A stretch of DNA of 64,000 nucleotides from contig NZ_ATWF01000001.1 in assembly GCF_000421105.1 (NCBI RefSeq), positions 468,930 through 532,929 of the forward strand, given 5' to 3'. The position numbers and the translations under genes were made by a program. Shown here in pieces: positions 7,201 through 56,880 of this stretch. Origin of the DNA: Limisalsivibrio acetivorans. Lineage in GTDB: Bacteria > Chrysiogenota > Deferribacteres > Deferribacterales > Geovibrionaceae. The first letter of the stretch is position 1; every line of letters begins with the position of its first letter. The notes under the pieces are model-generated. The model was not told the origin of the DNA. It worked only from the letters and a program-made list of their open reading frames with translations, and made no database searches.

Positions 7201-8016
7201 TTACCTCAGGTAACTGTGCTTATCATCTGGGAATACTGAGCTTTTGACGTCTCCAATATAGTCCTGAGCCGCCTTCACAAGTTCTGTTTTTGCGTCCGCA
7301 TATCTTTTAACAAACTTTGGAATGAAGTCATCGAAGAGGCCGAAGACATCATGGAAAACAAGGATCTGACCGTCACACCCCTTCCCTGCGCCGATGCCTA
7401 TGGTGGGTATATCAACCGCTTTAGTTACAGATGTTGCGACATCCGCCACAAGTCCTTCGAGTACCAGAGAGAAAATTCCGGCTTCCTCAAGGGCCTTAGC
7501 ATCTTCAATGTACTTTTCAACACCGTCACGACCCTGCACCTTGAAGCCACCCATGGTATGAATACTCTGAGGCATAAGTCCGATATGCCCCATCACGTTT
7601 ATACCGGAATTAACCAGTTTCTTCACCAAAGGAGCCTTCTCTGCGCCCCCCTCTATCTTAACCGCTTCAGCACCGCTCTCTTTAATGGCCCTGATGCAGT
7701 TTGTAAGCGCTTTTTCCTCACTTTCATGGTATGTCCCAAACGGCATATCAAGCACAAGAAAGGAGCGTTTGAGCCCTCTTTTAACGGCCTTTGTGTGGTA
7801 TATAACCTCGTCCAACGTTACAGGAATAGTGTTCTCGTAGCCATTCATAACAACGCCTAGGGAATCTCCAACCAAAACAAGCTCAATGCCTGCTTCGTCA
7901 AGTATCATAGCAGAGGTGTAGTCGTAGGCTGTGAGGCAGGTGATCTTCTCATTCTCCTGCTTCATCTTTGCGAAGTGATTAACTGTTATCTTCTTGATTT
8001 CAGAGTGTTTGCTCAT
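7201..8016 (-). CDS. panB: 3-methyl-2-oxobutanoate hydroxymethyltransferase
   Basis: It makes ketopantoate from alpha-ketoisovalerate and methylene-tetrahydrofolate. Family signatures include TCLTAYDYTSAMILDEAG, VLVGDSLGVVMNGYENT, GGFKVQGRDG and IPTIGIGAGKGCDGQ. The 271-residue length is normal. It is the first gene of panBCD. A good sigma-70-type promoter and a ~100-nt leader able to pair with the ribosome site lie just upstream and are listed separately. No panE is present in the window. Confidence 0.97.
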   Translation of the reverse strand: MSKHSEIKKITVNHFAKMKQENEKITCLTAYDYTSAMILDEAGIELVLVGDSLGVVMNGYENTIPVTLDEVIYHTKAVKRGLKRSFLVLDMPFGTYHESEEKALTNCIRAIKESGAEAVKIEGGAEKAPLVKKLVNSGINVMGHIGLMPQSIHTMGGFKVQGRDGVEKYIEDAKALEEAGIFSLVLEGLVADVATSVTKAVDIPTIGIGAGKGCDGQILVFHDVFGLFDDFIPKFVKRYADAKTELVKAAQDYIGDVKSSVFPDDKHSYLR

Positions 8017-8153: not shown

Positions 8154-8199
8154 TATCTAAATCTATCTAAGATAAATCCTTCCCTTGATTTTTCTTTAT

Positions 8200-9005
8200 A
8201 ATCTGGGAAATTCATAATCCTGAGAATTTTCCAGATTATATGGATGGAAATTCACAGATTAATGTAAGGGGAAATTTTTATGTAAAAAGTTCCCCTTAAG
8301 AACCCCTTAAAAACAAATTTGGGGTATATATTTAAGGTTGATATACAAAAGGCTTCCATGGATGGAAGCCCTGAAGTGAAGAATATGGAGCTATGCTTCA
8401 TATTCTGTAACGGAAGTAAGTGGAGCGAAGGCTTTGCCAAGCGTAGCGGCAGGGAAATTCTCAGGATGATGAATTTCCCAAGTCATATGGATGGAAGCCC
8501 TGAAGTGAAGAATATGGAGCTATGCTTCATATTCTGTAACGGAAGTAAGCGGAGCGAAGGCTTTGCCGAACGTAGCGGCAGGGAAATTCTCAGGATGATG
8601 AATTTCCCAAGTCATATGGATGGAAGCCCTGAAGTGAAGAATATGGAGCTATGCTTCATATTCTGTAACGGAAGTAAGCGGAGCGAAGGCTTTGCCAAGC
8701 GTAGCGGCAGGGAAATTCTCAGGATGATGAATTTCCCAGATTAATGTAAGGGGAAATTTTTATGTAAAAAGCTCTCCTTAAGAACCCCTTAAAAACAAAT
8801 TTGGGGTATATATTAAAGGTTGATATACAAAAGGCTTCCATGGATGGAAGCCCTGTAGGCGAAACTAAATTGAATTGTATTCAATTTATGTAGCCGGAAG
8901 TACGAGAGAGCGGGGTTCCCCCGCTCGAACAACAATGGAATTTCCATGGATGGTAAATTCCATAGATAAAATCGGATGATGAATTTCCCAGATTAAATAA
9001 ACAGA
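8200..9005. repeat. Mosaic palindromic repeat block R1 (with 3 x 129-bp tandem array)
   Basis: This 0.8-kb non-coding block between phoH and panB is built of hairpin modules. These include GGCTTCCAT-GG-ATGGAAGCC, GGGAAATTC...GAATTTCCC, GAATATGGAGCTATGCTTCATATTC, AATTGAAT-TGT-ATTCAATT and GAGCGGGG-TTC-CCCCGCTC. Units starting at 8358, 8487 and 8616 form a 129-bp tandem array. A ~119-bp direct repeat at 8255-8373 and 8737-8855 (offset exactly 482) brackets the array. An inverted copy of the TCAGGATGATGAATTT piece begins the block near 8207. Related blocks lie at 37.7-38.8 and 55.9-56.9 kb. Confidence 0.9.
8358..8744. repeat. Tandem repeat, three units of 129 bp
   Basis: Units begin at 8358, 8487 and 8616 with only a few substitutions (for example AAGTGG versus AAGCGG, GCCAAG versus GCCGAA). 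The last six bases of unit 3 diverge. Because 129 is a multiple of three, the array stays open in one plus-strand frame from 8319 to 8744. That gives a 43-residue repeat peptide which I regard as a by-product. Confidence 0.93.
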
Positions 9006-9013
9006 AGCCCATC

Positions 9014-10405
9014 CTAAAGCACTTTTGCTGCCTCGGAAGCAAGCCTGCTTCGCTCGCCCTTATCCAGATAAACCGTTGAGCAGTGTGCAAACTTAGATGA
9101 AGTAAACTTCTCTGATGCGTTTATAAGGCCGTTATCAAGCTCTGTAAGATAAGGATTGTCGATCTGCTTAAGATCACCGGTAAAAACGATCTTCGTGTTG
9201 TGCCCTGCTCTTGTTATGATGGTCTTCATCTCATGGGGGCTGAGGTTTTGGGCCTCATCGATAACCACAAAGGTATCCATGAGAGTCCTTCCCCTGATAT
9301 ACGTAAGCGCTTCTATCTCAAGGAGGTTTGCATCCTTAAGATACTCTATTGTCATGTTGTTCAGTTGATTCTTATGGGTTACACCGTCCTTACCTTCGCT
9401 TACGTTCCCCCTGCTTATGATGAACTCGAGGTTGTCGTAAATCGGTTTAAGCCAGGGATCCAGCTTCTCTGATATGCCGCCGGGGAGATAACCGAGATCC
9501 CTTCCCATGGGGATGGGTGAGCGTGTAACAACCATACGCTTGTACAGCCCTTCGCTCAGCACTGCATTAAGACCTGCACAAAGGGCAAGGAGGGTTTTAC
9601 CAGTACCAGCAATACCGATGGCAAAGACTATATCGATCTCAGGATCCAGTAGTGTATCAAGTAGATACCTCTGCTTTCTATTTGCCGGCTTTATACCGTA
9701 GACGTTGTCGGTCTCCTCCATCTTGAGGGTTTGAAAATACCGCTCACCTTCGGGTGTCTCAATATATTTCACGTATACGCTTAAACCGGGGTTCTCTGAG
9801 CTTTTCAGGATGAAATACTCGTTTGCCCTTGGCTGAAACTCCTCGGAGTCAATACCGTAAATCTCAGCAGGAAGATGCATCTCATGGGAGTTTCGCAGCT
9901 CGTTAAGGTAGGAATCCGCAACGATGAGTTCATCGTTTGTGTTATCAAGGAAGCTTCCTCTTCGTTCGTGGTAGTAGTCCTCCGCTTTAATCCCGAGCGC
10001 GTTGGCCTTGAGTCGGAGGTTAACATCCTTTGATATAACCACCGTCTCGTTACGCTTCGATTTCTTGAGCTTCATGGCAAGGCTCAGGATTAGATTATCG
10101 TTCTTTCGCTCAAACTCATCGGGGATAAGGCTTCTCGACTCCTGATCGTGGAAAGCGATATAGAGCTTACCGCCTGAATCGAGCTTAATGCCCTTTTGAA
10201 GGTCACCAGCCATGCGGTATTCTTCGATTCTGCGGATGAACTCCCTTGCGTTATAGCCGTTGAGATCAACGTTTTTCTTGAAGGAGTCAAGCTCTTCAAG
10301 AACTACTGCGGGCATGTAAATGTTGTTGTTTTCGAATGTTTCGAGGGCCTTGGGGGAATAGAGGATGACATTAGTGTCAACCACGAAGTTCTTTATTTTG
10401 GGCAT
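9014..10405 (-). CDS. PIN domain-PhoH ATPase fusion
   Basis: The 463-residue protein has an N-terminal PIN-type nuclease domain with acidic residues Asp10, Glu37/38 and Asp103 (FVVDTNVIL, VVLEELD, KNDNLIL). A PhoH ATPase domain follows, with Walker A GIAGTGKT at 264-271 and Walker B VVIDEAQN. This PIN-PhoH architecture is linked to RNA unwinding and cleavage in other bacteria. An ATG at 10423 is in frame, but the ATG at 10403-10405 has GGAG six bases upstream and I prefer it. It is transcribed divergently from the K+ channel gene. Confidence 0.92.
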   Translation of the reverse strand: MPKIKNFVVDTNVILYSPKALETFENNNIYMPAVVLEELDSFKKNVDLNGYNAREFIRRIEEYRMAGDLQKGIKLDSGGKLYIAFHDQESRSLIPDEFERKNDNLILSLAMKLKKSKRNETVVISKDVNLRLKANALGIKAEDYYHERRGSFLDNTNDELIVADSYLNELRNSHEMHLPAEIYGIDSEEFQPRANEYFILKSSENPGLSVYVKYIETPEGERYFQTLKMEETDNVYGIKPANRKQRYLLDTLLDPEIDIVFAIGIAGTGKTLLALCAGLNAVLSEGLYKRMVVTRSPIPMGRDLGYLPGGISEKLDPWLKPIYDNLEFIISRGNVSEGKDGVTHKNQLNNMTIEYLKDANLLEIEALTYIRGRTLMDTFVVIDEAQNLSPHEMKTIITRAGHNTKIVFTGDLKQIDNPYLTELDNGLINASEKFTSSKFAHCSTVYLDKGERSRLASEAAKVL

Positions 10406-10538
10406 CAACCACTCCGGACTCATAGACTATACTAAATTTTTATCGGTGAACGCCAAAATGTCAAGCAACAGTTTTACAAATCATTGTGTGTTTGGTATCT
10501 TTTAATCAAGGCAGAAATTTAGGGCACCGGAGCGGGTT

Positions 10539-37727: not shown

Positions 37728-38762
37728 CCCCAAGTAAAATGATTTTTTCTAAATGGGTTTTTAAGGGGTTCCTAAGGGGAAGGTTTCCCTACAATTTCCT
37801 AGATTAATGACGACGCAGACCGTTATAAAGTATGCTGTCACGTGCCCGGTGCGAGCAAAACAACGTGCCCCGTGTGGATCTGTTTGTTCAGTAGTCATAC
37901 ATTCGACCATGTAGTTGTTGCGTACACGTTCCTTTCTTTTCTTCCCTGAATGTTTTTAAGCCGAACGAGTACTCACTTTTCCGCCCGGAATATTTCCCGC
38001 ACGACAACCATTGCTGAATCTATGAATAGTGGCTTCGGTTAACTGTGATTAGTTAATAACCTCCTCAGAATCAGGAAATATTCAGGAAAAGGGAGTGCGA
38101 AGCAAGGGTACCGTCATCAGTTATCAGTATTTTATTAAAATGCTGGTAACAATGACGGATTAAAAACTCTGAGGGAGTAGTTTTGCATACTTTTCTAAAA
38201 AGTATGTGGCGCATAAGCGCAAGACAAATAAGTTAGTGACTTATTTCGAGTATAAGTGTGAAAGCAAAAATCGCAGGGAACTTTTTAGGGAACAAAGTTC
38301 CCCGCACCCCTCAAAAACTCCTTTATTTATCTGAATAATTTCCCGTCCATGGAAATTATTCTGCCGTTCGAAGAAAGAGGCTTCCTTCTCACTTACGCAA
38401 GCGCGCTTTCATCAATGAAAGCTTTTGCTAATCATACGTTTGGGGTTGATACGTAACAGGCTTCCATGGATGGAAGCCTCTGAAGTGAAGAATATGGAGC
38501 TATGCTTCATATTCTGTAACGGAAGTAAGCGAAGCGAAGGCTTTGCCGAGCGGAGCGGCAGGGAAATTCTCAGGATGATGAATTTCCCAGATTAGTATGG
38601 ATGGAAGCCCTGAAGGCGGAGCTGAATTGGGCTTTGCTCAATTCACGTAGCCGGAAGTGCGAGAGGGCAAAGTCCCTTTGCCCGAACAACAATGGAATTT
38701 CCATGGATGGGAAATTCCATAGATATATTAGGGGGAAATATTCATGAATATCTCCCCCTAAA
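37728..38762. repeat. Mosaic palindromic repeat block R2
   Basis: This 1-kb non-coding block lies between hypD and the EamA gene. It contains an inverted copy of the 8255-type module (TTTTTAAGGGGTTCC near 37760). Next comes a ~170-bp hairpin-rich stretch at 38160-38335 that recurs inverted at about 56126-56290. From 38459 a GGCTTCC module carries the GAATATGG hairpin, and a second unit from ~38599 carries GAATTGGGCTTTGCTCAATTC and GGGCAAAG-TCC-CTTTGCCC hairpins. It ends in a long TTAGGGGGA...TCCCCCTAA hairpin. Confidence 0.88.
38728..38762 (-). terminator. Long hairpin behind hypD, probable transcript end
   Basis: TTAGGGGGA-N-ATATTCATGAATAT-N-TCCCCCTAA folds as one ~16-bp hairpin starting about ten bases past the hypD stop. 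It lacks a proper T-run, so it may be a stabiliser or part of the repeat rather than an intrinsic terminator. Confidence 0.5.
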
Positions 38763-55904: not shown

Positions 55905-56880
55905 AGTTATTCCCAACGTGAGTTTTTGAGGGGTGCGGGGAACTTTGTTCTAAACCTATTTATGGAATTTTCCTTCCATGGAAATTCCATTGTTGTTCGG
56001 GCAAAGAAACTTTGTCCTCTCGTACTTCCGGCTACGTGAATTGAGCAGAGCCCTATTCAGCTAAGCCTTCAGGGCTTCCATCCTTGGAAGCCTGTTGAGT
56101 CGCAACCTTAATAGTTATCTACAAGGTGAGTTTTTGAGGGGTGCGGGGAACTTTGTTCCCTAAAAAGTTCCCTGCGATCTTTTCCTTTCATACTATAATT
56201 AGAAATAAGTCACTAATTTATGTGTTTCGTGCTAAAGCACGCCATACTTTTGGCGCAAAAGTATGCAAAACTTTTCCCTCAGGGTTTTCCAGCCCCCATT
56301 GTTACTCATTTATTAACATAAATTCGTAAGAGATGGCGGTGCCCTCATTTCACTCTTTTTCCACCTGAAGTTTTGCTGATGCTGAGGAGTGTAACCGCAC
56401 TTCATACATTTAAGATGCTCAACATTTAAGATTAACTCATCAGTCACGTGCGGCCAAAACTTCCGGGCGGTTCCAATAGAGCTCATTCGGCTGTAAAACA
56501 TTCGGGGAAGATTAAGAGGGTTATTAGCTAAACAGAATATTGGCTACTAGTTACCTGTTTAACGAAATACCTTTTTACGTCTCACGTTGTTTTCTCTTAA
56601 GTGTAAACGCTATAGCCAACATAATTCAATTCTAACGATAGAGATTTATGAGTAAACAGCTAACATGGATGTTGGCTTTATTGGTTTCAACCTTAGACGT
56701 ATGATTAGCAACTGGCTTCCACGGAAGTAAGCGGAGCGAAGGCTTTGCCAAGCGTAGCGGCAATGGAATTTCCATGGATGGTAAATTCTATAATAAAATA
56801 TGGAGAGATGGGTTTGCCGAGAGGAGCGGCAGGAAAATTCTCAGGATGATGAATTTCCCCATTTAATCAGAATCAAGGGA
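55905..56880. repeat. Mosaic palindromic repeat block R3 (inverted relative to R2)
   Basis: This 1-kb block lies between HU and fbp. At 55960-56095 it carries, reverse-complemented, the GGAATTTCC / GTTCGGGCAAAG / CTTTGTCC / GGCTACGTGAATTGAGC / GGCTTCC modules of R2. At 56126-56290 it carries the GAGTTTTTGAGGGGTGCGGG hairpin stretch found inverted at 38160-38335; a shorter start of this also lies at ~55920. Fragments of the GCGGAGCGAAGGCTTTGCC and TCAGGATGATGAATTTCCC units are near 56710-56860. Confidence 0.88.
56440..56515 (-). pseudogene. Possible remnant of a coding segment shared by R2 and R3
   Basis: The minus-strand frame reads SPNVLQPNELYWNRPEVLAA. The plus strand of R2 at 37941-38008 reads SLNVFKPNEYSLFRPEYFPH in the equivalent frame. 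Residues such as NV, PNE and RPE are kept although bases differ. Both are short and stop soon, so at most a decayed piece of a gene once carried by the element. Confidence 0.35.

Follow-up and report, generated by a model that had tools for sequence, protein, structure and literature searches.

Dispersed hairpin repeats with drifting stems and a conserved CsrA-type loop in Limisalsivibrio acetivorans and its relatives

The gap between panB and a PhoH-like gene in the window (the whole 64,000-nucleotide stretch analysed here, whose positions are used throughout) is filled by hairpins whose arms differ from module to module and are nonetheless self-complementary. This raises the question of what is held constant in such repeats, and what might read it. 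To answer it, we compared the array, named R1, with copies elsewhere in the window, in the rest of the genome, and in related genomes. The exact coordinates of the arms written out in a first-pass annotation of the locus were recovered, R1 is a mosaic of modules as that annotation had described, and the window does hold three arrays of the family. Their features are as follows.

7201-8016, minus strand: panB, flanking R1
8197-8996, plus strand: array R1, between the PhoH-like gene and panB
8350-8372, plus strand: H1 hairpin aggcttcc-ATGGAT-ggaagccct, with an ANGGAX hexaloop
8358-8744, plus strand: three tandem near-identical 129-bp units, 129 from start to start
8381-8405, plus strand: inner hairpin A, GAATATGGAGC-TAT-GCTTCATATTC
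8412-8417, plus strand: GGAAGT linker between inner hairpins, a candidate single-stranded GGA
8452-8479, plus strand: H2 hairpin gggaaattctc-AGGAT-gatgaatttccc, with an A-GGA-X pentaloop
8581-8608, plus strand: H2 of unit 2
8710-8737, plus strand: H2 of unit 3
8832-8854, plus strand: H1 of the second element, whose reverse complement (8854-8831, minus strand) is terminator-like
8867-8887, plus strand: inner hairpin A of the second element, AAATTGAAT-TGT-ATTCAATTT
8908-8926, plus strand: inner hairpin B, GAGCGGGG/CCCCGCTC
8935-8963, plus strand: H2 hairpin atggaatttcc-ATGGAT-ggtaaattccat
9014-10423, minus strand: PhoH-like gene, flanking R1
37751-38725, plus strand: array R2, between an EamA-family gene and a pyruvate-formate-lyase-like gene
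38333-38361, minus strand: H2 of a reverse element in R2
38458-38479, plus strand: H1 in R2
38561-38588 and 38692-38720, plus strand: H2 hairpins in R2
38624-38644, no strand assigned: inner hairpin GAATTGGGC-TTT-GCTCAATTC in R2
38665-38683, no strand assigned: hairpin GGGCAAAG/CTTTGCCC in R2
55918-56859, no strand assigned: array R3, between FBPase and arginase-family genes
56658-56677, 56763-56791 and 56835-56856, plus strand: ANGGA hairpins in R3
56070-56094 and 55962-55990, minus strand: ANGGA hairpins in R3

Each element follows one plan, with an outer hairpin (H1), one or more inner hairpins, a GGA linker and a second outer hairpin (H2). The inner hairpin GAATATGGAGC-TAT-GCTTCATATTC occurs in the window letters at 8381-8405, 8510-8534 and 8639-8663, and again in R2 at 38490-38514, where its stem has one G.T pair. 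The second and third tandem units of R1 have their first base at the H1 loop and lack the left arm. A second, longer repeat module of several hundred bp, with the palindromes CGTGCTAAAGCACG and ATACTTTT...AAAAGTAT, is interleaved with the hairpin elements in R3 and in three arrays outside the window (L011, L026, L043).

Stems that change and a loop that does not

The 88 occurrences of the inner region, from the end of H1 to GGAAGT, comprise 62 different sequences. Arm shuffles and swaps took the place of a covariance model, for which the stems are too variable. Among the A hairpins, with 16 distinct arm pairs, an arm matched its own partner at 0.91 of positions, compared to 0.43 (maximum 0.68) when partners were swapped, and for the next hairpin, B, the values were 0.92 and 0.66 (maximum 0.87). 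In the sister genus (G001, G004 and G007), we took 113 unique 20-mers lying a set distance ahead of the element core, so that pairing was not a criterion for their choice; arm pairing was 0.737, compared to 0.554 (maximum 0.602) after shuffling, and 190 cells held changes in both arms, compared to a shuffled maximum of 99. The earlier claim that the arms change together thus stands: swapped arms fit far worse, and with so many double changes the copies are not ordinary duplicates that lack compensating changes. Two whole modules of the window folded with z scores of -4.9 to -6.9, on either strand.

What the first-pass annotation missed, while correct about a dispersed modular family with covarying arms, was that the loop, C-A(N)GGAX-G, is conserved, a feature that points to CsrA. 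The outer hairpins H1 and H2 have unrelated stems and this one loop in common. All outer stem classes in the L. acetivorans genome (GGCTTCC, GCCAAC, GGCTCCC, AGCTTTC, GGAATTTCC, ATAATTTCC, and the pentaloop type GGGAAATTCTC) carry A(N)GGAX in the loop, and among 27 unique H1 hairpins, picked by flanking sequence only, the counts position by position were C 26, A 25, any base, G 26, G 23, A 27, T or C, and G 27. In three species of the sister genus, 110 hairpins chosen blind to the loop had 55 different stems and gave C 109, A 108, any base, G 94, G 106, A 109, any base, and G 110. Roughly 10-15% of the sister-genus H1 loops depart from the consensus (e.g., ANTGAC), which counts against a CsrA role. 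An unbiased sample of 400 kb from G004 contained 21 perfect stems of at least 6 bp around the loop CANGGANG, and the control loops TNGGAN, ANGCAN and AGCAN were found on 0-1 stems; ANCCAN was dropped as a control, its form ATCCAT being ATGGAT read from the other strand. We conclude that these repeats form a real, dispersed family under structural constraint, with a CsrA-type loop at the centre of that constraint. A loop that is kept on stems that are free may favour selection on the fold over templated hairpin copying.

Distribution of the family and its CsrA context

At least 165 BLAST matches to the hairpin family were found in the L. acetivorans genome, a number that, like the own-arm pairing, is well above chance, and the stretches fetched contained at least 48 intergenic arrays, with one further array downstream of csrA; array counts are lower bounds, taken from among the matches listed. 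More than 200 candidate CsrA sites lie in the arrays fetched. The family is also present in relatives from two other genera. In the third of these three genera (G005, G008, G011), the same plan is kept, the H1 and H2 stems differ again, and the loops are A(N)GGAX, as in GACTTC-ATGGAT-GAAGTC, GGAAATTTTCC-AGGAC-GGATAAATTTCC and CATTATTTTCCC-ATGGAC-GGGAAAATAATG. Samples of a fourth genus (G003) contained 1 such hairpin, and those of two other families (G017, G020) contained 0 each. A scan of a contig collection with GGAATTTCCATGGATGG gave 45 scattered single matches where ∼30 are expected by chance (17 bases, 257 Gb), in a collection that may omit L. acetivorans itself; a search for plasmid or phage carriage of the repeats gave no match. 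Other repeats are found near the elements: TCATTGCGA...GCAATCT-type palindromes adjoin ANGGA elements in relatives (L046, L052, L070), and L. acetivorans arrays such as L021, L035 and L043 contain GGGAACTTTTTAGGGAACAAAGTTCCC and CTAAGGGGAAATTTTTAGGGAAAACTTTCCCCTTAG, which have AGGGA near the loop and no clean hexaloop.

The fixed and free positions of the loop, with its closing C-G pair, have the same pattern as the published CsrA/RsmE target. NMR and ITC studies of RsmE identified an ANGGAX hexaloop placed directly on a stem as a high-affinity target, with N and X variable, and the 127-nt sponge RNA RsmZ combines four A(N)GGAX stem-loops, of which two are AGGAX pentaloops, with a single-stranded GGA linker (PMC4005645). 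Every family genome tested encodes one CsrA. That of L. acetivorans is canonical, aligning with the solved structures of CsrA (1t3o) and RsmE (2jpp); its gene is adjoined by fliW, and an array starts directly after it. Elements or their remnants are likewise located 3' of csrA in G005 and G011, and, in degenerate form, in G004. Within csrA itself, early codons in two genera (g3 and g4) contain TTATC-AAGGAA-GATAA, an ANGGAX hexaloop hairpin ∼220 nt before the stop codon (L267, L268, L269, L270, L271, L274, L275, L279), which is a possible site of CsrA autoregulation.

What might read the repeats

Our preferred reading, to which the sequences lead us to give about even weight, is that the repeats are dispersed, rapidly turning-over CsrA-binding RNA modules, serving as sponges or as 3'-UTR sites, made from a transcribed ANGGA strand. 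The A(N)GGAX loops would serve as CsrA binding sites, two or more of high affinity being displayed by a transcript of an element's ANGGA strand, and the copies might act as dispersed decoys, or as CsrA sites within intercistronic RNA and 3' UTRs. Since it is the loop that CsrA recognises, with only some stem required beneath it, the stems would be free to drift, provided that both arms change together, and elements may spread by tandem duplication and exchange at the loop. A bolder form of this reading, which we put forward tentatively and with some doubt, is that the family is mobile-like and is selected for the high-affinity CsrA decoy that it yields, an RNA sponge spread genome-wide over many loci and operating beside FliW, with stems left free since only the ANGGA loop and pairing are read.

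The closest likeness is to the sponge RNAs of the Csr/Rsm systems (CsrB/C, RsmX/Y/Z). The module, of ∼100-135 nt, resembles RsmZ in its several A(N)GGAX stem-loops and its GGA linker (PMC4005645), but there are at least 48 arrays here rather than one gene, and the CsrA sites are candidates. No sigma-70-like promoter was found in R1, and an Rfam search matched no Csr/Rsm family or other known RNA; both results weigh against a CsrA role, as do arrays with elements on both strands and the G.U mismatches of the sister genus, which are about as frequent as A.C, with no clear excess on the ANGGA strand. The rhizobial sRNA families SmelA075 and SmelA099 also combine several hairpins and one loop motif with diverged stems (PMC3927594), although their loop is CCUCCUCCC (anti-Shine-Dalgarno) rather than A(N)GGAX, and here copies fill intergenic arrays.

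Strand and context were examined relative to the neighbouring genes, which were called by a crude longest-ORF rule. In G004, the ANGGA strand coincided with that of the flanking genes at 28 of the 36 loci whose neighbours are co-directional (p = 0.001). Of 21 L. acetivorans loci with type-I elements, 15 had the element on the strand opposite to the flanking genes and 6 on the same strand (p = 0.08), which counts against CsrA binding, and the reverse AGCTTTC type agreed with the gene strand at 4 of 5 loci. Terminator-like sites, consisting of the H1 reverse complement with a T-rich tail, are found on the opposite strand at 8854-8831 and 8372-8349. This opposite strand bias, the missing promoter, and the terminator-like reversed H1 weaken the simple sponge-RNA reading in L. 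acetivorans. The same sites, together with arrays that abut gene 3' ends, would suit terminators or 3'-end stabilisers of neighbouring genes, in which the loop is irrelevant. Arrays were over-represented in convergent gaps (20 of 45) and under-represented in divergent ones (3 of 45), compared to 39 and 40 of the 154 background gaps in the same stretches. We consider this explanation quite improbable, however, since only 2 terminator-like sites occur in the region where 1.0 is expected, the R1 H2 hairpins have no T run, and stem G+C and tail, not the loop, should then be conserved.

A rather unlikely alternative is a DNA-level mobile hairpin, in which a recombinase or transposase acts on the folded single strand, the loop is its recognition or crossover site, arrays grow by loop exchange, and the likeness to CsrA targets is incidental. 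Chimeric hairpins in the L. acetivorans genome, in which one stem class gives way to another right at the loop, such as ATGGAATTTCC-ATGGAT-GGAAGCC (L015), are consistent with this, as are half hairpins broken at that same point, such as the R1 units beginning at ATGGATGG, both orientations within one array, and orthologous gaps of G004 and G007 that differ in the presence and number of elements. But comparison of these gaps revealed no clean target duplication or empty site, a partner enzyme was not found, and free variation at loop positions 2 and 6 suits CsrA contacts better than an identity-dependent crossover. Near-identical genes for a 321-aa transposase, which we take from its domains and general knowledge to be of the IS30 family, are present in four arrays (L011:4816-5781, L017:2510-3475, L026:4515-5480, L041:4741-5706); this element is a passenger in the arrays, not the source of the repeats. 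In L041, it is inserted within a hairpin of the array (GGGGAACTTTGTTCCC / CCCTAAAAAGTTCCC), that is, in a palindromic target. MITEs and Rickettsia-type palindromic elements are, like these repeats, short, non-coding, multi-copy and palindromic, but no pairing of terminal repeats with a target duplication was seen here, nor a parent transposon, and the G004 and G007 gaps show presence/absence differences with no clean junctions.

The first-pass annotation had also suggested a REP-type Y1 transposase, and REP/REPIN elements mobilised by a RAYT (Y1) enzyme would share with our repeats an extragenic, multi-copy, dispersed distribution, stem-loop-forming palindromes and mosaic arrays (as in BIMEs). 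This we find hardly credible. Genome searches found 0 Y1 family members in L. acetivorans and in three copy-rich relatives (G001, G004, G007), a result that also counts against the mobile hairpin, and single members in the copy-poor G003, G006, G008 and G009. The loop is kept and the stems vary, the opposite of REP, and a common consensus palindrome is missing, with 55 stems in the sister genus and several unrelated stem classes in L. acetivorans. A REP/RAYT origin was rejected on the absence of Y1 (PF01797) from the copy-rich genomes. Distinctly unlikely, too, is passive spread without function, in which imperfect palindromes are corrected against a template and their arms thereby stay complementary. 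Correction of quasi-palindromes is known as a mutational process by which both arms come to change at once, and recent tandem copies and the near-equal G.U and A.C mismatches are in keeping with it. Passive spread leaves unexplained the constancy of A, G, G, A and of the closing C-G pair across three genera, on 55 or more stems, when loop positions 2 and 6 are variable and so are the stems themselves.

Where fliW occurs, the known antagonist of CsrA is FliW and no sRNA, which argues against CsrA decoys in these genomes. Whether FliW and sRNAs act jointly on CsrA in any species was an open question in a 2020 review (PMC7652899), and this genome, with fliW beside csrA and candidate CsrA sites in the hundreds, may provide a test case. 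Dispersed bacterial repeats are usually known by a conserved stem, often with no known function. In this family, the invariant part is the loop, which agrees at each base with a known protein site, so that the function of the family is directly testable.
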